NCBI GenBank assembly: GCA_017538365.1
Contig: JAFYIZ010000031.1
Span: 1-49,945 of the forward strand
Origin: a bacterium
GTDB taxonomy: Bacteria; UBP6; UBA1177
DNA length: 49,945 bases
Direction: 5' to 3'
Below the pieces are notes generated by a model that was given only the letters and a program-made list of their open reading frames with translations, was not told the origin of the DNA and did no database searches. Shown one piece after another: positions 1-42,309 of the stretch; positions within the stretch are counted from its first letter, which is position 1, and each line of letters begins with the position of its first letter. Both the position numbers and the translations under genes were made by a program.

Positions 1-1995
1 AACCGAATAATTGAGACAGCTACCAATGCAAAAAACTATTCCCAAAATCAGGACAAGCAATATCTAAAAAATATTGATAAAATCGATTTGCCGCCTGTGT
101 ATAAATGGAAAATAGCCTTTCTTTATTCTGACCGAGAGTTGATTAATTGCTACTCTGTTGATAAATTGAAAGAATTGTTGAAGAATTTGCAACCAAATGC
201 AAAGACCTCAATACCAATTTCGGATTTGCAATTTCAACTCGTCAATATAAAAAAGGAAAATCCGACCAAGTTTAACGAAGCATTTGATTCTTTGTGGTCA
301 AAAGACAACAACAATAAGAATAAAGAGGATAAAACCATGACGAACACAACGACATCAGAACTTGCACAAGAATGTGCTAAACTTCTCATAAACACCAAAA
401 ACTTAATTCTTCATGGAGCCCCAGGAACAGGAAAAACCTATCTTGCCAAAAATGAAATTGTTCCTGAACTTGCCAAATTGTTGGGAGTAAACAAAGACGA
501 TGTTGAAATAGGTTTAGTTCAATTCCATCCAAGCTACGATTATACTGATTTCGTTGAAGGAATCAGACCAACACGAGATGAAAAATTTGAACCAGTGGAT
601 GGAATTTTTAAAAAATTCTGTGAAAAAGCTATTAACAACTCGGAGCATATTCTCAAAACCTCAACAGATGTGAACACAAGTTATTTCAATATATTGGAAA
701 TATTAAAAGATTTCGTGAGTAAGTTTGAGAATAAAATTCCTAAACATTGGTCAAAAAGCATGGAGTTTTTTAAAAATAAATTGAAGACACTTGAATCCTC
801 CACAAATAATATAAATCAGGTAAAAGAGTTATTTTATTTAAAAATAGAATTACTCTGGTTTAGCGAAGAATGTAGCAAAGAATTGAGATCTAATGACAAA
901 CTTAAAACTACCAGTCTGATGATTGACAAGAAGTCTTTTGAAGAAAGTCTTAAAAATTTAAAAGACAAACTCCTAAATTACCTTAACAGCCTTAATTATC
1001 GAAATGATCTTAATACATGTTGGAATTTGTTAATGCAAGAAGTATCCAAACACAACATAAACAATCCTTTAAAAATATATGATTACTACTTCATAAAAGC
1101 TAAAAGAGCACAATCTTTAAAAAAAGTCCGAAAAGAAAATGATGGATATAAAGATATTAACACTACATTTCCCCTTAAAAACATTAATAATGTTTATAAA
1201 GGTAACAGTAAAGGTCGACCTTATAACAGTATTATTGAGTATATGAGCACGCATTATAAACTTAAAACTTATGCTAATGAGCAACTTGAAGATCATGTGT
1301 TTGACGAACCTCCTGAAGAAGCACCCAACCATAGTGTAAATAAAAATCCTTTTATCTTTATTATTGATGAGATCAACCGCGGAGAACTTTCCAAAATTTT
1401 TGGAGAATTGTTCTTTTCCATTGATCCTGAGTATCGTGGCACAAAAGGCGCAATACTTACACAATATGCAAACATGCAAGATAAGCAAAATAAATTTGAT
1501 GAGGCTCTCGGGATCACAGACAGCGATAATTTTGGTCACTTTTTCGTTCCAGAAAATGTCTACATCATCGGCACAATGAACGACATCGACCGCAGTGTCG
1601 AAAGCATGGATCTGGCAATGCGCCGCAGATTCACATTCAAAGAAATAAAGGCAACAGACACTCAGGATTCAATTCTTTCACAATTAGACACAACCATCGA
1701 CAACAACACCGCAAAGAAACGCATGGAAACTTTAAATAAAGCTATTTGGGATGATGACACGAAAACCGGAGAACTCTCCTCTTCTGATTACCACATCGGT
1801 GCAGCATACTTCTTAAAATTGAATAACTTTGAAGGAACGTCTGAAGAAAAATTCCAAAAACTTTGGGAATACAACCTTAAACCTCTTTTGCATGAATATC
1901 TGCGCGATAAAAGCGATATCGAAAATAAATTGAATAAGCTTGAAGAAGCCTACAAAAACCAGAGTGAGCCTAAAGAAAAAGCCGATGAACAATAA
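1..1995 (+). CDS. mcrB: McrB-type AAA+ GTPase of a McrBC restriction system, 5' end outside window
   Basis: Motor subunit of a modification-dependent restriction enzyme; in the family, GTP hydrolysis drives translocation and activates cleavage by McrC. The frame is open from base 1, so the true start lies upstream. In order one sees an N-terminal region (to about base 300) of unrecognised fold, an Asn/Lys-rich hydrophilic linker, Walker A GAPGTGKT (about 415-438), Walker B FIIDEINRG (about 1357-1383) and a GTMNDIDRS...AMRRRF stretch (about 1573-1632). GTMNDIDRS sits where E. coli McrB has its NTAD-containing guanine-recognition motif (family knowledge). About 235 residues of poorly conserved, Lys/Asn-rich sequence are inserted between Walker A and B. 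An in-frame ATG at 337, behind GAGG (325-328), could give a short form without the N-terminal domain. Its stop overlaps the mcrC start. The AT-rich composition differs from the housekeeping genes further right, which suggests transfer. Confidence 0.9.
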   Translation, partial: NRIIETATNAKNYSQNQDKQYLKNIDKIDLPPVYKWKIAFLYSDRELINCYSVDKLKELLKNLQPNAKTSIPISDLQFQLVNIKKENPTKFNEAFDSLWSKDNNNKNKEDKTMTNTTTSELAQECAKLLINTKNLILHGAPGTGKTYLAKNEIVPELAKLLGVNKDDVEIGLVQFHPSYDYTDFVEGIRPTRDEKFEPVDGIFKKFCEKAINNSEHILKTSTDVNTSYFNILEILKDFVSKFENKIPKHWSKSMEFFKNKLKTLESSTNNINQVKELFYLKIELLWFSEECSKELRSNDKLKTTSLMIDKKSFEESLKNLKDKLLNYLNSLNYRNDLNTCWNLLMQEVSKHNINNPLKIYDYYFIKAKRAQSLKKVRKENDGYKDINTTFPLKNINNVYKGNSKGRPYNSIIEYMSTHYKLKTYANEQLEDHVFDEPPEEAPNHSVNKNPFIFIIDEINRGELSKIFGELFFSIDPEYRGTKGAILTQYANMQDKQNKFDEALGITDSDNFGHFFVPENVYIIGTMNDIDRSVESMDLAMRRRFTFKEIKATDTQDSILSQLDTTIDNNTAKKRMETLNKAIWDDDTKTGELSSSDYHIGAAYFLKLNNFEGTSEEKFQKLWEYNLKPLLHEYLRDKSDIENKLNKLEEAYKNQSEPKEKADEQ

Positions 1996-3392
1996 TGTTT
2001 AATATCAAGATAAAAGATAACAATTACAGTGGTTTCAAGCTTACAAATCAAACAGTAAGCAACTTTACCCAAATTACAGATTCAGAAAAAACAAAAGTCA
2101 TCGAAGCCTTAAAGACAATCAGCAATGTTCCGCTAGCAAAATTGGCAAAAGATGGATTCATCGTCTTCCCAAGAAGCAATGCCGCGGAATCCGACCTAGC
2201 TAACCAAGATAAAATCATATCTGTTCAAGACCTCGAATCAGACAATCCAACCATAAAAACTGGCAACATCATGGGATTTTTCACGGTAAACGACACCGTA
2301 CAGATAGAAATACATTCCCGTTTTGACGACTCAGGAAAGCAGTATTTTCTGCATCACATGCTTTCAAAAGTATGCAATATCGCACCGACAAAAGAGTTGA
2401 TCGAGGCAACGAGCAAAAACCCGCTCCACAATTTTGCGGTTTATCTCTTCCCTGCTTTTCTGAAACGCGCATTGGAACAGGGATTGTTCAGAACCTATGT
2501 GACTCGTGAATACAACGATTCCAATATCCGAGGTCCGATAGATTTTCCGCGTCACATCAAACAAAATATGCCTTTTAATGGTAAAATCGCCTATCGGACA
2601 CGCGAATTCAGCAGCAACAATCCGCTGACGCATCTTATACGCCACACTATTGAATTTATTGATGAAAGCCACAACATGCACAGTATTCTTGCCGGAAACG
2701 CAAGAACCGATGTTGCCGCGATCTGTGCCTGCACGGAAAATTACCGCCGCTCGGAACGCACCATAATCATTGCAAAAAATTCAAGACCTATCACCTCGCC
2801 CTTTTATTCTGAATATGAAAATCTGCGCAAACTCTGCCTGATGATTCTGAACCGCGAAAAACATTCCTACACATCGAACGACACTCAAATAAACGGAATT
2901 ATCTTTGACGTAGCATCACTCTGGGAAGATTATCTTGCAACTCTTTTTGCGCCGAAAGGTTTCCTACACCCAAAAAACAGAGAACGTTTAGGTGGAATAA
3001 GGATGTTTGACAATAGCAACACATCTGAAGATCCAGAACTTACCTTTGATAAAAACTACCGAAAAATCTATCCCGATTTTTACAAACCAAATAAAGATGA
3101 CAAGTCTCAGGATGGATTTATTCTGGATGCAAAATATAAACATTTGCAGAATGGTGTCGGACGCGAAGATTTATTCCAAGTCGTAACTTATATGCATACG
3201 ATGAAGATTAACAGCGGAGGATTTATTTATCCTGCTAATTTTCCAGATTTCCGAAATTTAAAACTTGCGAACGATGGCGGAATTATAAAAATCTGCGGCA
3301 TGAAAATCCCGACCAATAAAGACAAATTTGATGATTTCTGCGAAGAGATGAAAGATCAAGAAAATCAGTTGTTTAACAGAATAGAAATCTAA
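1995..3392 (+). CDS. mcrC: McrC endonuclease subunit of McrBC restriction system
   Basis: Nuclease partner of McrB, 465 residues. The start ATG overlaps the mcrB stop by one base (TAATG), so the two are translationally coupled and presumably made in fixed ratio. The C-terminal half carries a PD-(D/E)xK nuclease signature: YPDFYKP (from about 3071) followed by LDAKYK (from about 3124), the Asp and the Asp-x-Lys pair expected to bind metal. The N-terminal half has the GFFTVNDTVQIEIHSRF-type strand pattern common to McrC proteins. Length is in the range of longer McrC homologues (E. coli McrC is about 350). No DNA methyltransferase gene is next to it, as expected of a type IV system that cuts modified DNA. 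Gene assignment is firm; the modification recognised cannot be read from sequence. Confidence 0.9.
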   Translation: MFNIKIKDNNYSGFKLTNQTVSNFTQITDSEKTKVIEALKTISNVPLAKLAKDGFIVFPRSNAAESDLANQDKIISVQDLESDNPTIKTGNIMGFFTVNDTVQIEIHSRFDDSGKQYFLHHMLSKVCNIAPTKELIEATSKNPLHNFAVYLFPAFLKRALEQGLFRTYVTREYNDSNIRGPIDFPRHIKQNMPFNGKIAYRTREFSSNNPLTHLIRHTIEFIDESHNMHSILAGNARTDVAAICACTENYRRSERTIIIAKNSRPITSPFYSEYENLRKLCLMILNREKHSYTSNDTQINGIIFDVASLWEDYLATLFAPKGFLHPKNRERLGGIRMFDNSNTSEDPELTFDKNYRKIYPDFYKPNKDDKSQDGFILDAKYKHLQNGVGREDLFQVVTYMHTMKINSGGFIYPANFPDFRNLKLANDGGIIKICGMKIPTNKDKFDDFCEEMKDQENQLFNRIEI

Positions 3393-31582: not shown

Positions 31583-31610
31583 ATTATAATAAAAAAGATA
31601 ATTTTTTCAA
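31583..31610 (-). promoter_or_regulatory. Promoter of the lipoprotein-mnmE run
   Basis: Minus strand: TTGAAA (31610-31605), 16 bp, perfect TATAAT (31588-31583), then TTCCCG. GGAGG follows before the ATG at 31552. Confidence 0.65.
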
Positions 31611-31703: not shown

Positions 31704-32453
31704 TTAGTAAATGAAGGGGAATACTCTTTTTCTTGATTTGGGGTATTCGTCGCCGAATTTTTCGATATACCAGAGTCTGTTTTTGGCAGCACGCGGAACG
31801 AGGTTCGCCATCGAGAAGAAGACGAAAGCGAGTCCGGGAACAGACCAAGTCAAAACCGCCCAGCCGGCCCATTCGACGATCTCGCCGAAATAGTTGGGAT
31901 TAGCAACATATTTATGGAAACCTTTCATCGGAATGTGGTAACCCGGACCGTTTTCTTTACGCAGATTGCGGACAATGTGGTCTGACTGGATGTTGATGAA
32001 CATTCCGCAGTAGAAGAGCAGGGCACCGATAATGAACTGCGGCGAGTGAAACCACGAAATTTCGTATTTCGAGAGGAAAAACAGCCAGTAACCGTTGACA
32101 AAACCGTTCATGCAGTTGAAAAAAAGCGACATAGCGATGATCGAAAGGGGCATTTTTGCGCCGTTTTTGATGAGGAACGGATAGATCAGATCGCGCTGAA
32201 CGTAGTGCGAAAGCCATATTCCGAGCATCACTCCTGTTACCGCGTTGACGTTTCCGAGAAACGCGAAAACTATCGGCAGAATGACAACCGGCGACTCCAT
32301 TATCATCCAGCCGAGCCTAGGATTTATCGCTGGGCCCCATTTTTTACTGCCGTATCTGCCGTAGCCAGCAGTGACGAAGTAGAGTGAAATCCACGTGAAG
32401 ACTCCGCTCACGAAAATGAAGACAAGTGTCCAGAAATAAAGTTTTTCCATCAT
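31704..32453 (-). CDS. Steroid 5-alpha-reductase family membrane enzyme
   Basis: 249 residues, about the length of human SRD5A1/2, with about six or seven hydrophobic helices. Seen: GRYGSKKWGPAI and GWMIMESP, where Glu53 aligns with the substrate-binding Glu57 of SRD5A2; SHYVQRDLIYP, where Tyr84 aligns with Tyr91; and the NADPH-side C-terminus ANPNYFGEIVEWAGWA, NLVPRAAKNRLWY, DEYPKSRK. These are the conserved positions of 3-oxo-5-alpha-steroid 4-dehydrogenases (alignment by eye). Expected to reduce a carbon-carbon double bond of a steroid or isoprenoid lipid with NADPH; the true bacterial substrate is unknown. The start overlaps the stop of the LolA-like gene (ATGA). Confidence 0.87.
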   Translation of the reverse strand: MMEKLYFWTLVFIFVSGVFTWISLYFVTAGYGRYGSKKWGPAINPRLGWMIMESPVVILPIVFAFLGNVNAVTGVMLGIWLSHYVQRDLIYPFLIKNGAKMPLSIIAMSLFFNCMNGFVNGYWLFFLSKYEISWFHSPQFIIGALLFYCGMFINIQSDHIVRNLRKENGPGYHIPMKGFHKYVANPNYFGEIVEWAGWAVLTWSVPGLAFVFFSMANLVPRAAKNRLWYIEKFGDEYPKSRKRVFPFIY

Positions 32454-33250
32454 TTTTTGTCCTTTTTCGGCATAAGTTCTATTTCTTTGTTCTCGAATTT
32501 GTAGATGAGAACCCGTTTGTAGCCCATTACACTGATTACAACTCTCGTATAACCGCTCGTAAAGTGGAAGAACTGACCGTTGTTGAAGTCTTTTGCCTGA
32601 TATTTGACGTAAAGATCCTTTTCGCCCATCCTTTTTTTGCCCGCTTTACCTTCGTTCTGCATGTATTCGAGGTTGTCAACCGAAACCCAGACATGGCCGA
32701 CGAAATGTTCAGCTTTCGGTTTTCTCGCCGTCATTTTGATTTTGTATGCAAGTCTGCCGTTCAGTTTTTCAACGGCCACAAGTTCACGGATATACTCTTT
32801 ATCGCCGTTTTTATCGAAGTGGGGAATTCCCGGCTTTGACTCGTGGGGATCGCATGCAATAACGCCGGGACGCCTCGGTTTTCCGTCCGATTCGCATGAG
32901 TGAAGCTCGATTTTGAGGTCTTTGTACCAGTCATCCCAGCGGGTGTAGACGTATTTTTCGGTCTCGAGCAGTTTGTTAGTATCGGGATCGCGGTATTCGA
33001 CCGTGACATAGCGTTTGTTCTTTACACCGGCGTAACTTTCATACATTTTTGAATATTTTGCCGTGATCTTGTCAATGACTTCCTTCGAAAATTCAGGTGT
33101 TATCGGCATTCCTTCGTAAACTTTCTCCTTTTCAGCTTCTGCTTTCGGAGCAGCCTGTTCAGCGGGTTCCGATTTTTGCGCAGCTTCTTCGGCACAAACA
33201 TAAAAACCCAGTAAAATCAAAGTGATAAAAGTTAAAAAAATCTCTTTCAT
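32450..33250 (-). CDS. Periplasmic LolA-like / lipoprotein-sorting-like protein
   Basis: 266 residues with a signal peptide (MKEIFLTFITLILLGFYVCAEE), then an Ala/Glu/Lys-rich linker. The remainder is beta-rich: KRYVTVEYRDPDTNKLLETEKYVY, LAYKIKMTARKP...FVGHVWVSVDNLEYMQ and RVVISVMGYKRV. The 'xVWVSxDNLxYMQNEG' turn resembles LolA/LppX-fold outer-membrane lipoprotein-sorting proteins, which hold lipids in a half barrel. That assignment is tentative. The TGA overlaps the ATG of the steroid-reductase-like gene by 4 bases, so the two are translated together, suggesting a lipid-handling pair. Divergent from the metallopeptidase gene. Confidence 0.65.
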   Translation of the reverse strand: MKEIFLTFITLILLGFYVCAEEAAQKSEPAEQAAPKAEAEKEKVYEGMPITPEFSKEVIDKITAKYSKMYESYAGVKNKRYVTVEYRDPDTNKLLETEKYVYTRWDDWYKDLKIELHSCESDGKPRRPGVIACDPHESKPGIPHFDKNGDKEYIRELVAVEKLNGRLAYKIKMTARKPKAEHFVGHVWVSVDNLEYMQNEGKAGKKRMGEKDLYVKYQAKDFNNGQFFHFTSGYTRVVISVMGYKRVLIYKFENKEIELMPKKDKK

Positions 33251-33280: not shown

Positions 33281-33308
33281 ATTATATTGAAGAAGAGTTT
33301 TTTATCAA
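33281..33308 (-). promoter_or_regulatory. Promoter of the LolA-like/steroid-reductase operon
   Basis: Minus strand: TTGATA (33308-33303), 16 bp, TATAAT (33286-33281), then CTGCCG. Confidence 0.65.
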
Positions 33309-33361: not shown

Positions 33362-33405
33362 GAGATGTTTCAGTCCTTTGGTTTATTGTTAATTTGGAGG
33401 TTTCA

Positions 33406-36024
33406 ATGAAAAAATTTTTGGTTGTTTTTGCTCTCCTGCTGTTTGTTGCAACAGTTTCGGCAGAACAGAAAAATCTCTTTGCTTCGGCTTCCGTCAAAAA
33501 AATCGACGGCGTCACGGCAATGGTTTCAGGACTTGACATTCAGGTTAAAGCGGATGCCGATTCTCTGAAAAAATTCATTAAAAACGATTTTTACAAGGCT
33601 TTCAACATCGGAAAAAATGTTGAACCGGAGCTTTTCCGCGCTATTCAGATCGACGATGCTTCGATTTACAAGTTCGTTCCTTTCTACAAGGGAATCAAAG
33701 TTGACGGTATCTACACCGTCATCACGATGAGAAACGGAAAAATCGACAAAATCAGCAACGGTCTTTCCGATATTGACATCGACGTCACGAAGATGATTTC
33801 CGAAAGTCAGGCACTTAAATCGGCTATGGCAGCAAGACACATGAAAGTAACGCCGAAAAATTATTCCGCAGAAAAACTCATTGTTCGTCATTTCGGCAAA
33901 TTCGTTCCCGCATACAAAATCAGATTCGCTCCGATAACCCTCGCAGACAGCCGTTATCATCTTGTCAACGCACTGACGGGCAAAGTTTTCAAATCGAGCC
34001 ACTCGACATACTTTGACGATCCTGCAGACCCGATATCTCCGGATGATCCTGCAGATTCCGATGTTCCGGACACCGGTGATACCGAACCCGATCCTGCAGA
34101 TTCCGGTGATACTGAAGAACCGGTTGAGCCGGCAAGAAAATGCGACGGCACGGAAACCAACAAGGCGAAAATCTGGAAGTTCAACCCGAATGTTACTCCC
34201 GACCTTGAAGAAGTCGAGCTGCCGTGGGTAGCTTCATGGGACGACAGCGAACTTACTCCGGAACTCCTGGGAACGCTTATCACCAGCCCGAATAACGACG
34301 GAGTCAGAGAAATCAAATCTTACAACTGCCCGGATGACGGCACGGTAATAGACATTTACGGCTTTATTAAAATTCATACATGCCATCCGATGCCTCTTGC
34401 AAACAAATGCGAGAACGGCAGCTTTATTTATGACGACTGTGACGGCGGGCATGAATTCTCGGAAGACAGTATAACGATCGACAAAATCGACAAATGCGCC
34501 GAAGTTTCTATGTATTACCACGCTTCCAAAATTTATGACTACATCAAGACACTTTACAAAGACATCGATTCCAAAAACGAATTCTCTCTCAATACAAATG
34601 TTGCAGGAAATCCGCTCAATGTAATCAGCAACTTTACAATGCCGGATCTTAGCGCAATCATGAACGGTTTCAGCGGCGGTGGCAGCAATGAAGGCGACAA
34701 CAAGCTCGTTCCGTTCGACAATGCGTTCTTCACTGAGGAACAGCCGATGCTCTCAATGTTGCTCGGAAATTTCGGCATAGAAGGCGATCTGCTCGTTTTC
34801 GGTCAGGGAACCGCTGCTGATCTCGGTTACGACGGCGATGTCGTTTATCACGAATTCGGTCACGCTACGATTTACACTGCCGGAATTACCGGTCTTGAAT
34901 TCCAGGACAAATACGGTCTTACTGTTGAGCCGGGCGCTCTTCACGAAGGTATGGCAGATACTTTCGCTTTCATTATGACCGACAACACCTGCACCGGAGA
35001 ATACGCTTCAGAAGGTTTTGTTAAAGCAGATCCGAGATACGCAGCTTCAATGGATACCGAAGTTGTAGACGGCAAAGAAATTTACTGCATGAGAAGCGCT
35101 CTCAACAAGAAAAAAGTTTTTGAAGATTTCGTCGGCGAAGTCCACTGGGACGGTCAGCCGCTCCTTGCTTCGAACTGGGATATTTACCAGCTCATCAAAG
35201 GAAGTGATACCGACACGCAGAAACACCGCGACAATCTGGCTAAACTTTTCCTCAAAACGCTCTATTCGATAGGCGATGCGGACGCTTCCTACAAACTTTG
35301 GGCTGAAACTCTTATGTCTGAAGTCGAAAAAGACGACAACTTCAAAGGCAAAGCAGCTGAAATTAAGAAAATTCTTGAAGACAGAAATTTCTTTGAAGAA
35401 GTTCGTGCACGCAGCGTAAACGAAAAAATCAACGATACGATGTATATTCCTGCCGGCGGTGATAACGAAGGTCAGGGAAGCAACGATCCGACCGGCGGTA
35501 TGCTCGGCGGCGGAGAGAGCGGAATCACTGTTTTGGACGGTGACGAAGAAATTAAGGTAGGACCGGCTTATATTCAGTACTACTTCGATGTTCCGGCTGA
35601 CGCTGAAAAAGATGCTCTCAAAGTCAGCGCTATAGTTGCGGCAAACAGCACAGATTCAATGCTCGGCGGCGGCAGCAACCAGAAACCCAAACTGGAAATT
35701 TATTACAGAAAAGGTGCTCCTGTTGAATACTCGGAAGACGGTGAAGTCAAAAAAGACGGAAAATCAACCGGTGATGCGTCAAAAGGCTGGTTCATCCCCA
35801 ATGTCGAAAAGGGTGAAAGATACTACATCCAGTTCGTGAATGTTTCAGCGACTGCCGCAGCTGCTGCAGCTATTTCTGTTGAAACTTCCGATGCTCCTGC
35901 GGGTTCCGAAGTTACGGACGAAGACACCGACGCTACACCTGATGACGAAATGAGTTACGGCGACGACGAAACTCAGGAAGAAGGCAAGAAGAAAAAATCA
36001 AGCGGCTGTTCGCTTGTTCTTTAA
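33406..36024 (+). CDS. Secreted zinc metallopeptidase (thermolysin/fungalysin-like)
   Basis: 872 residues. Signal peptide MKKFLVVFALLLFVATVSAE; FTP/PepSY-like propeptide (FVPFYKGIKVDGIYTVI...YHLVNALTGKVFKSS, to about residue 205); Asp/Pro-rich linker (about 205-245); then a catalytic part with VVYHEFGHATIY, zinc ligands His482 and His486, catalytic Glu483, and a second motif LHEGMADTF, whose Glu514 is a plausible third ligand. The 32-residue spacing is closer to M36 than to M4. A C-terminal jelly-roll-like region and an acidic/Lys tail ending SSGCSLVL follow. ATG 33406 is chosen over an upstream in-frame codon at 33394 because of GGAGG and the signal. Extracellular proteolysis expected; substrate unknown. 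Confidence 0.85.
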   Translation: MKKFLVVFALLLFVATVSAEQKNLFASASVKKIDGVTAMVSGLDIQVKADADSLKKFIKNDFYKAFNIGKNVEPELFRAIQIDDASIYKFVPFYKGIKVDGIYTVITMRNGKIDKISNGLSDIDIDVTKMISESQALKSAMAARHMKVTPKNYSAEKLIVRHFGKFVPAYKIRFAPITLADSRYHLVNALTGKVFKSSHSTYFDDPADPISPDDPADSDVPDTGDTEPDPADSGDTEEPVEPARKCDGTETNKAKIWKFNPNVTPDLEEVELPWVASWDDSELTPELLGTLITSPNNDGVREIKSYNCPDDGTVIDIYGFIKIHTCHPMPLANKCENGSFIYDDCDGGHEFSEDSITIDKIDKCAEVSMYYHASKIYDYIKTLYKDIDSKNEFSLNTNVAGNPLNVISNFTMPDLSAIMNGFSGGGSNEGDNKLVPFDNAFFTEEQPMLSMLLGNFGIEGDLLVFGQGTAADLGYDGDVVYHEFGHATIYTAGITGLEFQDKYGLTVEPGALHEGMADTFAFIMTDNTCTGEYASEGFVKADPRYAASMDTEVVDGKEIYCMRSALNKKKVFEDFVGEVHWDGQPLLASNWDIYQLIKGSDTDTQKHRDNLAKLFLKTLYSIGDADASYKLWAETLMSEVEKDDNFKGKAAEIKKILEDRNFFEEVRARSVNEKINDTMYIPAGGDNEGQGSNDPTGGMLGGGESGITVLDGDEEIKVGPAYIQYYFDVPADAEKDALKVSAIVAANSTDSMLGGGSNQKPKLEIYYRKGAPVEYSEDGEVKKDGKSTGDASKGWFIPNVEKGERYYIQFVNVSATAAAAAAISVETSDAPAGSEVTDEDTDATPDDEMSYGDDETQEEGKKKKSSGCSLVL

Positions 36025-38007: not shown

Positions 38008-39306
38008 ATGAGTGAATTTATAAGGTTTATCGCTTTAAGATACTTCACTCAAAGTCACCGCAAACACACCCTTTCTTTAATTTCGCTGATTTCGGTACTG
38101 GGACTTTCGCTCGGTGTCGCGACCTTGATAATCGTCCTTTCGGTCATGGACGGTCTGATCGCGAAAACTGAGGAAATCGTTCTCAAATCGACAACTCACG
38201 CCAACGTTTACAGGCTTATAGGAAATTTCGACACCTACAACGAAGTCGCTCGTCAGGTGCAGTCTATCCCCGGTGTTCTCGGAGCAACTCCGGTCGTTTT
38301 CAAAGAGGCTCTTCTGATGTCCGAAAAAGGGCTTGCGACAGCGTTTTTGAACGGTATCGACCCCGTTGGCTACAAAAAAATCTCCGATTTGTCGGAACTC
38401 GTAGTCAAAGGAGAGTATGAATGTCTGGCAAAAGGGGACAGGTGCAGATATGTCGCGAAAAATCTTTTTGAAATGAGCGAACTGGACGATTTCTTGGGTG
38501 AAAAACCGCAGCTTTTTCCGGCAATTCTGGGTGTTGACCTTGCAGCAAAACTTCAGGTTTCACCCGGCGACATCATTTCTCTCGTCACTTCGGGAAGCAG
38601 AAAAACTGTCGGTGAAGACGCAGTTCCGGTAAGCGGAAATTTAGTCGTTGCCGGAATTTTTGAATCTGGAATGTACGACTACGATTCGCGTTATCTCTAC
38701 GCCGGACTTGAAGAAACACAGAAACTTCTTGAGATCGGACACAATGTCAGTTTTGTTTCGACAAAAGTCGACGAACCGGGAAAAATCCTTGATTTCAAAG
38801 GGCTGATGACTGACCGTGTCGGCGGTTTTCCTTTTGCAGTTCAGGATTGGCGCGATCTCCACAAGACGACTTTAAAATTTTTCCACCTGCAGAAACTGAT
38901 AATGTTCATAATCCTCGTTTTTATCGCTGTCGTCGCTTCGTTCGGAATAATTACAACGCTGATCATGCTGGTTATCGACAAGACACGGGAAGTTTCGATT
39001 CTGCGCTCTATCGGCGCGAAAAAACGGGTTATCCGCGGAATTTTTATGCTTGACGGCTTCATAATCGGTCTTCTGGGAACTTTTTTCGGCTCTGTTTTCG
39101 CCGTTTTGATATGTCTTCTACTGAAAAACGTCGAATTTCAGATAAGCAAAGAGGTTTACTTTTTTTCGACTCTGCCGGTGCAGATGTCGTTTATGACCTT
39201 TGCGGTCGTTATTTTTTCAACGCTTATGATCTCGGTCGCAGCAACGCTTTATCCGAGCATCAAAGCTTCCGGAATTACTCCGGTAGAGGGGCTTAGACAT
39301 GAGTGA
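38008..39306 (+). CDS. lolC: Lipoprotein-releasing ABC transporter permease (LolC/LolE type)
   Basis: 432 residues. One helix near the N-terminus (HTLSLISLISVLGLSLGVATLIIVLSVMDG), a large periplasmic domain (about 55-290), then three C-terminal helices with LVIDKTREVSILRSIGAKKRVIRGIFMLDGFIIGLLG, the FtsX-type coupling region. It extracts mature lipoproteins from the inner membrane for transfer to LolA. Only one permease gene is present, so the complex may contain two identical permeases, as proposed for lineages with a single LolF-like protein. Overlaps lolD by 8 bases. The local abundance of lipoprotein genes fits its role. Confidence 0.93.
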   Translation: MSEFIRFIALRYFTQSHRKHTLSLISLISVLGLSLGVATLIIVLSVMDGLIAKTEEIVLKSTTHANVYRLIGNFDTYNEVARQVQSIPGVLGATPVVFKEALLMSEKGLATAFLNGIDPVGYKKISDLSELVVKGEYECLAKGDRCRYVAKNLFEMSELDDFLGEKPQLFPAILGVDLAAKLQVSPGDIISLVTSGSRKTVGEDAVPVSGNLVVAGIFESGMYDYDSRYLYAGLEETQKLLEIGHNVSFVSTKVDEPGKILDFKGLMTDRVGGFPFAVQDWRDLHKTTLKFFHLQKLIMFIILVFIAVVASFGIITTLIMLVIDKTREVSILRSIGAKKRVIRGIFMLDGFIIGLLGTFFGSVFAVLICLLLKNVEFQISKEVYFFSTLPVQMSFMTFAVVIFSTLMISVAATLYPSIKASGITPVEGLRHE

Positions 39307-39979
39307 AAACACGATTCTTGCTTTGGAAAACATAAAAAAATCGTACTTCGTCGAAGGTCACAGGATCGACGTTCTGCGCGGCGTGAATCTGGAAATGAAA
39401 GAGGGCGAGCACCTTTCCCTCACCGGAAAAAGCGGCTCGGGAAAATCGACTCTGCTCAATATCATGGCGACTTTGGAAAAGCCTGACAGCGGAAAGATCC
39501 TGCTCAAAGGCGAAGAACCGTCGAAGTTTTCCGATTCGAAACTGAGTTCGTTCAGAAACCGCGAAATCGGGATAGTTTTCCAGTTTCACCACCTTCTGCC
39601 CGAGTTCACGGCGCTTGAGAACGTCGCAATTCCGCTCATGCTCACTCAGTCGAAAAAAACGGCTCTCGAAAAAGCGGAAAAAATGCTTGAAAGAGTCGCT
39701 CTGACGCACCGCTTGAACCACAAACCGGCTGAACTTTCCGGCGGAGAGCAGCAGAGAGTCGCCATTGCAAGGGCGCTTGTCACAGAGCCGTCGCTTCTTT
39801 TGATGGACGAACCTACCGGAAATCTGGACAATGAGACGGGAAAAATGATAATAGCACTCATTCTTTCCATTGCTGAGGAAAGAAATTTGACGACTCTTTT
39901 CGTGACGCACAATCAGGATTTTGCCGCGGAAATGGGAAGAGTAATTGAGATAAGCGAAGGAGTTATCCGCAGTATATGA
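39299..39979 (+). CDS. lolD: Lipoprotein-releasing ABC transporter ATPase LolD
   Basis: 226 residues, standard length. Cytoplasmic ATPase that powers lipoprotein release through LolC. Walker A GKSGSGKST, Q-loop VFQFHHLLPEFTALENV (the LLPEFTALEN stretch is characteristic of LolD), signature LSGGEQQRVAIARAL, Walker B LLLMDEPTGNLD and switch His VTHNQD are all intact. ATG 39299 overlaps the lolC stop by 8 bases, and its own stop overlaps bamA by 4 (ATGA): tight translational coupling. Confidence 0.95.
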   Translation: MSENTILALENIKKSYFVEGHRIDVLRGVNLEMKEGEHLSLTGKSGSGKSTLLNIMATLEKPDSGKILLKGEEPSKFSDSKLSSFRNREIGIVFQFHHLLPEFTALENVAIPLMLTQSKKTALEKAEKMLERVALTHRLNHKPAELSGGEQQRVAIARALVTEPSLLLMDEPTGNLDNETGKMIIALILSIAEERNLTTLFVTHNQDFAAEMGRVIEISEGVIRSI

Positions 39980-42309
39980 ATAAATTTTTTCTTTTTTTCG
40001 CTATATTTCTTCTTTTTCTGCCGCTTTTTTCTCTGCAGGTGGACGATGTCGCGGTCGAAGGAACCATCAGGACCGAGCAGTCTATTCTTACGCAGTATTT
40101 TAAGGAAAAACGTGATTACAGCGAGAAAGAGATAAACGAGATCCTTGAAAAGATCATAGCGATCGAGATCTTCGAGGATGTTTCGATCTATTACGACGAT
40201 GCGAAACATCTGCTTAAATTCAAGGTTGTCGAGTTTCCGATAATCCGTTCGGTAAAATTTTCGGGAAACAAAAAAATCGACAGCGACGACATCAAGGAAG
40301 TTCTCACTGTTAAGAAAAACGAACTTCTCGATATGAACAAAATTTCTAAAAATACAGCAGCAATTCTCGGTGTTTACCATGACAAGGGATACCTTTCGGC
40401 AACTGTTGACGCCGATGTCGCAATAAACAAGGAAAAACAGGAAGTCAACATTGATTTCAAGATTTCGGAAGGCAAAAAAAGCCGCGTCAAAAAAGTGACG
40501 ATCGTCGGAAACAAATACCTTGAAGAAGCTGAACTCAAAAAGTATATGAGCGTTCAGGAAGACGGACTTTTCTCAATATTCAGCGACGGCGGCTACAAAA
40601 AAAGCGCGCTCGAAGAGAGCATGGGGGCGATAACCTATCTCTACAATGAAAACGGTTTTGTCGATGTCAAAGTCTCCAAGCCGACAGTCACGATTTCAAA
40701 AGACAAGCGTGACATCTACATTTCATACATCGTTGAAGAGGGAAAACGCTATAAAGTCGGCAAATACGAGGTTGAAGGAGACACGCTCGACAGCGGTAAA
40801 CTGCCTGACATGAAGTTCACGCAGAAACCCGGCGAATGGTATCAGCACTCCAAAACAATCAAAGATTTCGAAACCTTGAAGAAAATTTACGGCAACGAAG
40901 GTTATCCTTTTGTCGAAATACTTCCCGGCAGACATCTTGACGACAGACAGCAGTCGGTCGACATGAATTTCATCGTCAGAAAAGGGGAGAAGTGCTTTAT
41001 TGAAGAGGTTTCGTTTGCCGGCAACGACAGGACGCGCGACAAAGTTCTGCGCCGCGAAATGGAGATTTCCGAGGGCGATCTTTTCAACTATTCGCGTCAG
41101 AAAGAGAGCGAATACAACCTGAAAAGAACCGGTTTTTACGACGAAGTAAAAATCGAAGTCGTCAAAGGCTCGTCCCCCAACATGGCGAAGATGGTCGTCA
41201 CGGTCAAAGAGCGCAAAAGCGGAACATTCAACGTCGGCGCAGGTTTCTCGTCGTTCGAAAGTTTCCTTTTCAACGCAAAAGTCGAGCAGAACAACTTCCT
41301 GGGCTACGGTCAGAGCCTCAGCTTGGCAGGTCAGCTCAGCAAAATGAGAAGGGAAGTAAGCCTCAGCTTCTACGAGCCGTGGTTTGTCGATTCGAATGTT
41401 TCGTTCAATGTTTCGTTCTACTACAGATACTTGAACTACGATTCAGACATTTACGAATACTACGCCGACTACAGCCAGAACAGCTTCGGTTTCAGCGTTA
41501 CGTTCGGTATTCCGCTTGCGAAATATCTGCGCGCTTACCTGGGCTACAAGCTGAAAAAAGTTGATATCAACGGCGCGACCGAGCATCAGATGAACTATCT
41601 TTACAGAGATATTTTTTCGTCAGGTCTAACGGCGCGGCTCGCTCTCGATATGAGAAACGACAGAATGTATGCGACGAAAGGAATCTACGTAATCGGCGGT
41701 GCAGAATACTTCCCGCGCTGGATGGGAAGCGACGAGGATATCCTCAACCTCGACTTCAACTTCAGGTGGTATCAGGAACTTTTCCTTGGTGTCGTTTTCA
41801 GGACGAATATCGAACTCGGCTACAATATCCACCTTCAGAACAAGCCGCTGCCGTATGCCGAAAGATTCAAACTCGGCGGAATGTACAGCGTCCGCGGATA
41901 TCCGTTCTATTCGATCGGACCGAATCACGACCGCAGCGACACCGACTACAACATCCCGACCGACGGAAAAGACCCGACAAGTTCGACTTATCCCTACATC
42001 ATCGGCGGCGACAAGCAGTTCATAATGAACAACGAGCTTGAGATCCCGATAGTCAAATCGATGAGGATAAGCATCGTGGGATTCGTCGACCTCGGCAACT
42101 CGTGGGCAAAAGACGAGCATCTTTTCTACATCAATTCGAAGGATAAGGATATTTACGACCTTCCGCTCGGTGTTTTGTGGAGTGCCGGATTCGGTCTTAG
42201 ATGGGTAACGCCTATGGCTCCGCTTTCTTTCGAATGGGGATTCCCGCTTACTCCGAGACCGGGAGATCCGAAATTCCAGTTTGAATTCAACATTAAAAAC
42301 TCATTCTGA
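39976..42309 (+). CDS. bamA: Outer-membrane protein assembly factor BamA
   Basis: 777 residues. Signal peptide MNKFFLFFAIFLLFLPLFSL, about five POTRA repeats (to about residue 410; for example VKFSGNKKIDSDDIKEVL, VSFAGNDRTRDKVLRREMEISEGD), then a 16-strand barrel from FNVGAGFSSFESF to the end. The barrel lock motif appears as VRGYPF (usually VRGF). Terminal Phe as expected. BamA inserts beta-barrel proteins such as the porin at 10409. Location after lolC-lolD matches the order common in deltaproteobacterial genomes, though the skp-lpxD genes that often follow are missing and apbE follows instead. Confidence 0.94.
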   Translation: MNKFFLFFAIFLLFLPLFSLQVDDVAVEGTIRTEQSILTQYFKEKRDYSEKEINEILEKIIAIEIFEDVSIYYDDAKHLLKFKVVEFPIIRSVKFSGNKKIDSDDIKEVLTVKKNELLDMNKISKNTAAILGVYHDKGYLSATVDADVAINKEKQEVNIDFKISEGKKSRVKKVTIVGNKYLEEAELKKYMSVQEDGLFSIFSDGGYKKSALEESMGAITYLYNENGFVDVKVSKPTVTISKDKRDIYISYIVEEGKRYKVGKYEVEGDTLDSGKLPDMKFTQKPGEWYQHSKTIKDFETLKKIYGNEGYPFVEILPGRHLDDRQQSVDMNFIVRKGEKCFIEEVSFAGNDRTRDKVLRREMEISEGDLFNYSRQKESEYNLKRTGFYDEVKIEVVKGSSPNMAKMVVTVKERKSGTFNVGAGFSSFESFLFNAKVEQNNFLGYGQSLSLAGQLSKMRREVSLSFYEPWFVDSNVSFNVSFYYRYLNYDSDIYEYYADYSQNSFGFSVTFGIPLAKYLRAYLGYKLKKVDINGATEHQMNYLYRDIFSSGLTARLALDMRNDRMYATKGIYVIGGAEYFPRWMGSDEDILNLDFNFRWYQELFLGVVFRTNIELGYNIHLQNKPLPYAERFKLGGMYSVRGYPFYSIGPNHDRSDTDYNIPTDGKDPTSSTYPYIIGGDKQFIMNNELEIPIVKSMRISIVGFVDLGNSWAKDEHLFYINSKDKDIYDLPLGVLWSAGFGLRWVTPMAPLSFEWGFPLTPRPGDPKFQFEFNIKNSF

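Follow-up and report, generated by a model that had tools for sequence, protein, structure and literature searches.

A steroid 5-alpha-reductase family gene and its distantly LolA-like neighbour in UBP6 bacteria

What might a bacterial relative of the steroid 5-alpha-reductases (SRD5A) reduce, when its gene is joined to that of a putative envelope lipid carrier? The question is raised by a locus in a stretch of 49,945 nucleotides of UBP6 DNA (the window), whose source genome measures 2.3 Mb and is 97.6% complete. Named relatives sharing more than 80% reductase identity with it are rumen and gut MAGs. The locus holds the following features.

33281..33308, minus strand: promoter-like TTGATA-16-TATAAT, about 30 nt 5′ of the LolA-like ATG (consensus scan, 11/12 matches; a consensus match only, not evidence of function).
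32450..33250, minus strand: upstream gene of the pair, encoding a LolA-superfamily protein of 266 aa, predicted to be exported from its N-terminus (open reading frame; predicted structure).
32450..32453, minus strand: ATGA overlap of four bases between upstream stop and downstream start (open reading frame coordinates).
31704..32453, minus strand: SRD5A-family (PF02544) integral-membrane reductase of 249 aa, with seven predicted long helices and M52-E53-Y84 replacing Q-E-Y (Pfam, tree, residue map, model fold).
31583..31610, minus strand: promoter-like TTGAAA-16-TATAAT, after the reductase gene and before the next, lipoprotein gene (consensus scan; a consensus match only).

Both open reading frames lie where the initial annotation had placed them, with the ATG of the reductase overlapping the stop of the LolA-like gene (32450/32453), and the ATGA overlap suggests that the two are translationally coupled. 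The two-gene unit likely ends at the promoter-like site at 31583..31610; downstream of the reductase are a lipoprotein-like gene and genes that we read as MnmE, MnmG and RsmG, assigned from the open reading frames by eye. Elsewhere in the window, a large exported thermolysin-like protein is encoded divergently from the pair (33394-36024; weak match, NCBIfam ThermolysLepto 1.7e-7), a few kb away lie a LolC/E-like permease of the FtsX family and, by reading of the frames, a LolD-like ATPase and a BamA-like protein (38008-42309), and a McrBC-type restriction system, made up of an AAA ATPase and a McrBC component (PF10117), occupies 88-3392.

The family of the reductase is clear from its sequence and predicted structure. 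The 249-aa protein matches PF02544 with an E-value of 2.3e-48 and 164.4 bits, against a curated Pfam cut-off of 22.6, and its nearest PDB chains by sequence are 7c83 (PbSRD5A, 1.7e-61) and 7bw1 (SRD5A2, 9.8e-43), followed by TECR (22of, 1.3e-6); SRD5A3 is not among its PDB matches. A model built from 26 sequences (pLDDT 88.4, seven long helices) superposes on 7c83 over 247 residues at 2.0 Å (TM 0.91, Z 31.9, 40% identity) and on human SRD5A2 (7bw1) with a Z of 27.6 and 34% identity in the structural alignment, so that the steroid 5-alpha-reductase-like fold proposed in the initial annotation was recovered by structure prediction. Fold scores were lower for sterol C14 reductase, which shares part of the fold (Z 13.7), and for ICMT (Z 12.2). 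In a tree of 34 rows, which took 16 of the 21 UBP6 rows of the reductase alignment (A1), a 100/99 branch separated the 28 rows of the SRD5A group, the window protein among them, from six DUF1295/ICMT-like rows. Given this grouping, the phylogenetic objection that the protein might be a DUF1295 or ICMT-type enzyme fails. TECR (22of) fell beside SRD5A2 on a long branch, a placement that we do not trust. Membership in DUF1295, ICMT or PEMT was rejected on the separate branch, on profile scores of 21.9 (DUF1295) and 20.5 bits (PEMT) against 164.4 for PF02544, and on the ICMT fold score set against 31.9.

At the active site, E53 and Y84 align with E54 and Y87 of PbSRD5A in the residue map, in agreement with the earlier assignment of Glu53 and Tyr84, and the NPNYxGE and YPKSRK motifs are likewise present, the former as NPNYFGE. 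Eleven of the 13 hydrogen-bonding NADPH-contact residues of PbSRD5A are identical, the exceptions being T219, which is S214, and H230, which is N225. The Glu and Tyr, which hold the steroid carbonyl in SRD5A, are invariant in A1, an alignment from which one sequence (L009) was left out, its start being uncertain because the reading frame at the expected position opens with ATA. What the initial annotation missed is that Met52 of the window protein takes the place of Gln in the published QEY signature. This signature corresponds to Q53, E54 and Y87 in PbSRD5A and is highly conserved in the 5-alpha-reductases studied, and the SRD5A2 substitutions Q56A/L, E57L and Y91F each led to loss of activity (PMC7815742). 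Because Q56A/L is inactive, Met52 could mean another substrate or another mechanism. The change is not peculiar to the window: Met occupies the Gln position in 26/26 sequences of A1 (21 from UBP6, 5 others) and in all 44 bacterial relatives that we read (21/21 from UBP6 and 23/23 others, the latter including close kin, with L187 and L189 from one genus and L190, L191 and L192 from another), so that the QEY signature is Met-Glu-Tyr in every bacterial relative read other than PbSRD5A. Among these is a locus of Phocaeicola massiliensis (L134), in which the reductase gene is followed by Oxidored_FMN (OYE) and short-chain dehydrogenase genes. In Bacteroidota, a 5-alpha-reductase (5AR) gene has been described in a cluster with a predicted 3beta-HSDH and an NADH:flavin oxidoreductase, and its disruption in Parabacteroides merdae stops the formation of alloLCA (PMC10382948). 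Since the Phocaeicola Met gene stands in the gene order of this bile-acid 5AR, Met seems, as judged by gene order, compatible with 5-alpha-reduction. As the Gln was tested and is absent, we do not file the enzyme as a QEY-type steroid 5-alpha-reductase.

The upstream partner consists of an N-terminal hydrophobic segment, a low-complexity linker, and a helix with a curved beta sheet (residues about 50-266). Its N-terminus looks like a signal peptide from the sequence, and it is probably not a lipoprotein, since the Cys before AEE is not conserved among relatives. No family profile of Pfam or NCBIfam approached its curated cut-off (for PF03548, no match at E up to 1), and a PDB sequence search gave no match of note. 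Its AlphaFold2 model (pLDDT 85.5), by contrast with these sequence searches, brought up LolA-superfamily structures first: the top five Foldseek rows comprise LolA3 of P. gingivalis (2.5e-7), NE2245, DUF1329 and MucB, and the VIA matches include 3bk5 (Z 10.6; 4.0 Å, 173 residues), 4z48 (Z 9.5) and LolA3 (Z 9.2), with many rows of LolA/LolB type; families missing from these two lists are not thereby excluded. TM-scores against LolA-superfamily structures are 0.47 or lower on either length, which makes the partner a distant relative. From its model, then, the partner is within the LolA superfamily by fold only, and distantly. The description "LolA-like" can be kept for the predicted fold, and has to be given up if it is taken to mean LolA itself. 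The candidate that the partner is the canonical LolA was rejected, as it has no PF03548 match and the PF03548 gene of this genome lies elsewhere (G000:C11:14466-14990).

To judge whether the pairing is more than an accident of one genome, its distribution in the phylum is informative; we refer to the family of the window as f1, to a sister family of the same order as f3, and to another family of the phylum as f4. Both genes are present in 17 of the 19 f1 genomes searched and absent from the other two (G002, 59% complete; G011, 83%). In 17/17 of the former the two share a strand and the LolA-like gene comes immediately before the reductase, at a distance that ranges from -4 (overlap) to +20 nt (the start in L009 being the uncertain one). 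The flanks on both sides differ between genera g1, g2, g3 and g4, and partly within g1, in a comparison that used a greedy choice of open reading frames, prone to wrong-strand frames in GC-rich loci. Both genes are under strong purifying selection, with dN of 0.03-0.10 versus dS of 0.5-1.3 in nine comparisons against the window. Adjacency in every f1 genome holding both genes, together with this selection, argues that the pair is not a product of chance. The picture in f3 is different: both genes occur in 5/5 genomes and are unlinked in 5/5 (34 kb apart in G021, on separate contigs elsewhere). Conservation of the gene pair, on which the initial annotation depended, thus holds across f1 and breaks down in f3. 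In the single f2 genome a contig ends in a LolA-like fragment and no reductase was found, and neither gene was found in three f4 genomes.

Strong matches to the partner profile (A2, from which L022 and L024 were left out because of contig edges) are confined to one UBP6 order (f1-f3), with weak partial ones in 12 other genomes among 290 searched; four of these 12 non-UBP6 genomes also carry SRD5A. A second paralogue of the partner is found in genera g2-g4 and in f3. One paralogue has a TetR regulator gene on one side and a gene of the Scramblase family on the other (L096:9361-11290), a setting that suggests lipid handling by the family. A single vertical origin of SRD5A across UBP6 did not emerge from the reductase tree, where 4% of 200 bootstrap replicates have a branch that sets f1 and f3 together apart from the other rows. 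A gene for a large kinase-AAA-TPR-GAF-GGDEF protein precedes the SRD5A locus in divergent orientation in one f3 genome (L083:5014-9807) and one f1 genome (L087:4160-8833), possibly a remnant of a shared ancestral order.

The nature of the substrate depends in part on what the cell can make. The genome of the window has no match to squalene synthase (PF00494) or to an SHC-type cyclase (PF13243), so that the squalene and sterol genes sought following the initial annotation did not appear, a self-made sterol is unlikely here, and an endogenous sterol or hopanoid substrate was rejected for this genome. More widely, PF00494 was matched in 0/12 f1 genomes searched and in 4/4 f3 genomes; PF13243 gave one weak f1 match over the cut-off (G016, 27.9 bits), others under it (G013, G015, G018) and strong ones in G020 and G021. 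Outside UBP6, PF00494 is present in 9/21 genomes with SRD5A and has no match in 12/21. Given its distribution in f1 and in these genomes, a self-made triterpenoid is not the general substrate. The broader proposal of the initial annotation, lipid reduction tied to an envelope carrier, keeps its SRD5A fold, its LolA-superfamily fold and a pair conserved across the family, while its variant with an endogenous sterol has become unlikely. Stanols of both the 5-alpha and the 5-beta series have been reported in the faeces of herbivores (PMC6366745); this lends plausibility to sterol reduction in ruminants but does not single out UBP6.

A second line of evidence on the substrate comes from gene context outside UBP6, where a short-chain dehydrogenase (SDR) of one clade lies directly upstream of the reductase in 10/23 loci; in two of the loci (L188 and L194) the true reductase start is later, as the longest reading overlaps the SDR strongly. 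The linked SDRs match Epimerase and 3Beta_HSD in Pfam, and the best two NCBIfam models for the SDR are SdmB and HpnA, both under cut-off. The Calothrix SdmB alone yields lanosterone, a 3-ketone (PMC10202945). With a profile (A3) built from 5 of the 10 linked SDRs, strong matches (E at most 1e-50) were found in 13 of 15 UBP6 genomes with SRD5A that were searched. In the genome of the window the match is at G000:C32:43528-44511 (L238:7532-8536), with 3.5e-83 against 4.7e-14 for the next, and does not adjoin the reductase. The UBP6 SDR also scores under both NCBIfam cut-offs (233.9 of 600; 213.7 of 367.65). In the SDR tree, which holds 9 of the 10 linked sequences (L073 being a fragment), the UBP6 SDRs form a clade (100/100) that is sister (96/95) to the SRD5A-linked ones. 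In another bacterial family (f124), two genomes carry on one strand a LolA_like gene, a putative barrel gene, the SDR and SRD5A (L195:186-4569; L197:4978-8971, minus). The LolA_like protein in L195 belongs to PF17131 (1.3e-49) and is weakly related to the partner in the window (hhalign probability 39% and 11%); the second gene in L195 encodes an exported protein of 427 aa, by reading a putative outer-membrane barrel.

Taking these lines together, we lean, tentatively, towards a small operon that joins an SRD5A-family reductase of an acquired 3-oxo-delta4 steroid or triterpenoid to an exported LolA-superfamily carrier. Family, fold, gene pair, conservation and the presence of the SDR are observed here, and it is from these that we infer the substrate, the direction of transport and any physical cooperation of the two proteins. 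The downstream gene would encode an NADPH-dependent enone reductase of the bacterial Met-Glu-Tyr branch of SRD5A. By transfer of the mechanism from PbSRD5A and SRD5A2, NADPH would bind from the cytoplasmic side and the hydrophobic substrate would come in from the membrane; Tyr84 and Glu53 would hold the carbonyl, a hydride would pass to the beta carbon, and Glu53 would protonate the alpha carbon. The likeliest substrate would be acquired, with plant sterols of the rumen as one possible source; such a reading accords with the carrier fold, with the SdmB-like SDR and with what is described for Bacteroidota. The LolA-superfamily protein would most likely shuttle this hydrophobic cargo through the periplasm, towards or away from the inner membrane, and conversion between 3-hydroxyl and 3-ketone may fall to the SdmB/HpnA-like SDR, whose gene is at another place in the genome. 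Against this explanation stand Met52 in view of the inactive Q56A/L variants, the distance of the LolA fold match, the weak relation of the f124 LolA_like protein, and the UBP6 SDR, in its position away from the reductase and its scores under the NCBIfam cut-offs.

The f3 genomes also weigh against it, in that the two genes are unlinked there and the reductase gene has a PMT_2 glycosyltransferase gene as its immediate downstream neighbour in 5/5 (L083:9846-12032; L077, L079, L081, L085), a setting that would fit polyprenol lipids as well. It belongs to a rival explanation, unlikely in our estimate, by which the enzyme would be a polyprenal reductase: it would saturate the alpha isoprene as SRD5A3 does, with the SDR in the role of DHRSX and a dolichol-like lipid as the product, and the LolA-like protein would handle polyprenol. 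Undecaprenol is, as far as is known, universal in bacteria, so that such an enzyme would need no sterol supply, in keeping with the lack of squalene synthase and cyclase matches in the genome of the window and of squalene synthase matches in 12/21 SRD5A genomes outside UBP6. PMT_2 is a family of dolichyl-phosphate-mannose type, a UbiA gene follows the reductase in L072, and the combination of SDR and SRD5A mirrors the logic of mammalian dolichol synthesis, in which an SDR acts with SRD5A3 (PMC11607601). However, the sequence is close to PbSRD5A, of SRD5A1/2 type (among the PDB chains compared), a PMT_2 gene close to that of f3 was absent from the 8 genomes of the window's genus that were searched, and the SDR linked to the reductase is more like SdmB/HpnA than like a polyprenol dehydrogenase of tested activity.

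Two further explanations would dissolve the link to steroids or the link between the genes. That the two products are functionally independent, sharing a promoter by history only while the LolA-like protein works on lipoproteins or on the envelope at large, would suit their separation in f3 and the presence, within a few kb, of genes of LolC/D and BamA type (38008-42309; LolD and BamA by reading of the frames), yet the pair stays together in 17/17 f1 genomes with changing flanks and an overlap or gaps of at most 20 nt, and a LolA-superfamily gene is found in the f124 SDR-SRD5A cluster too; we hold independence to be quite improbable. Smaller still is the chance that we give to another membrane enone or enoyl lipid (fatty-acyl or quinone-like) as the substrate of a TECR-like enzyme, carried by the LolA-like protein. 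TECR is a remote relative (22of), sterol C14 reductase has part of the fold in common, and the pocket of PbSRD5A held monoolein (PMC7815742), but the match to SRD5A2 and PbSRD5A is far stronger than that to TECR, and the carbonyl-holding Glu and Tyr are invariant in A1.

Beyond this locus, many bacteria might share an as yet undescribed lipid-saturation module made up of an SdmB-like SDR and a Met-Glu-Tyr SRD5A, in some lineages with a LolA-superfamily carrier, by which rumen UBP6 would take up plant or microbial sterols beyond their own capacity for synthesis and turn them into 5-alpha-stanols, or would make a dolichol-like saturated polyprenol; we consider this generalization doubtful. SRD5A homologues of bacteria have served as models for structural work and act on bile acids in Bacteroidota. 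With an envelope carrier fold and an SdmB-like SDR in conserved association, two or three genes would suffice to put the question of the substrate to the test. Its answer would bear on sterol uptake and reduction by gut and rumen bacteria, or on whether dolichol-like lipids are made by any bacterium at all.

The enzyme alone is not new, since bacterial SRD5A homologues and their 5-alpha-reduction of bile acids in Bacteroidota have already been described (PMC7815742; PMC10382948). The new part is the link of SRD5A to a LolA-superfamily gene, which recurs in f124; our literature search, which rarely combined both terms and covered few subscription journals, returned no paper recognisable as being on a LolA-SRD5A pair. 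Among known systems, PbSRD5A (7c83) and human SRD5A2 (7bw1) share with the window enzyme the seven-helix fold at 40% and 34% identity, the Glu and Tyr of the carbonyl site, and 11/13 NADPH contacts, whereas the window enzyme differs in Met52 for Gln, in the S214 and N225 changes and in its exported partner of LolA fold. The SDR-SRD5A pairs in 10/23 loci outside UBP6 include the same Met-Glu-Tyr reductase branch and have a sister SDR elsewhere in the UBP6 genome, where, unlike in those pairs, it is unlinked. We know of no description of a bacterial gene pair of an SdmB-like SDR and SRD5A. The Bacteroidota bile-acid 5AR cluster (PMC10382948) likewise contains a gut-bacterial PF02544 reductase, and Phocaeicola L134, with the same gene composition, also has Met, but the UBP6 gene stands without an adjoining OYE or SDR, has a LolA-like partner and comes from a rumen habitat. 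The rumen precedes the entry of bile. LolA-superfamily proteins (LolA3, 9tp6; NE2245, 3buu; DUF1329, 4z48; and 3bk5) have the helix and curved beta sheet predicted for the partner, which in turn is about 10% identical to them, with a TM of 0.40-0.47 or lower and no PF03548 match, and forms a family of its own. Finally, the idea of a dedicated envelope carrier for sterols has a counterpart in BstA, BstB and BstC of Methylococcus, whose genes adjoin sdmA/sdmB; in contrast to the LolA-like partner, BstB and BstC are described as a two-domain alpha/beta and an all-helical protein, and Methylococcus makes its own sterols (PMC10942540).
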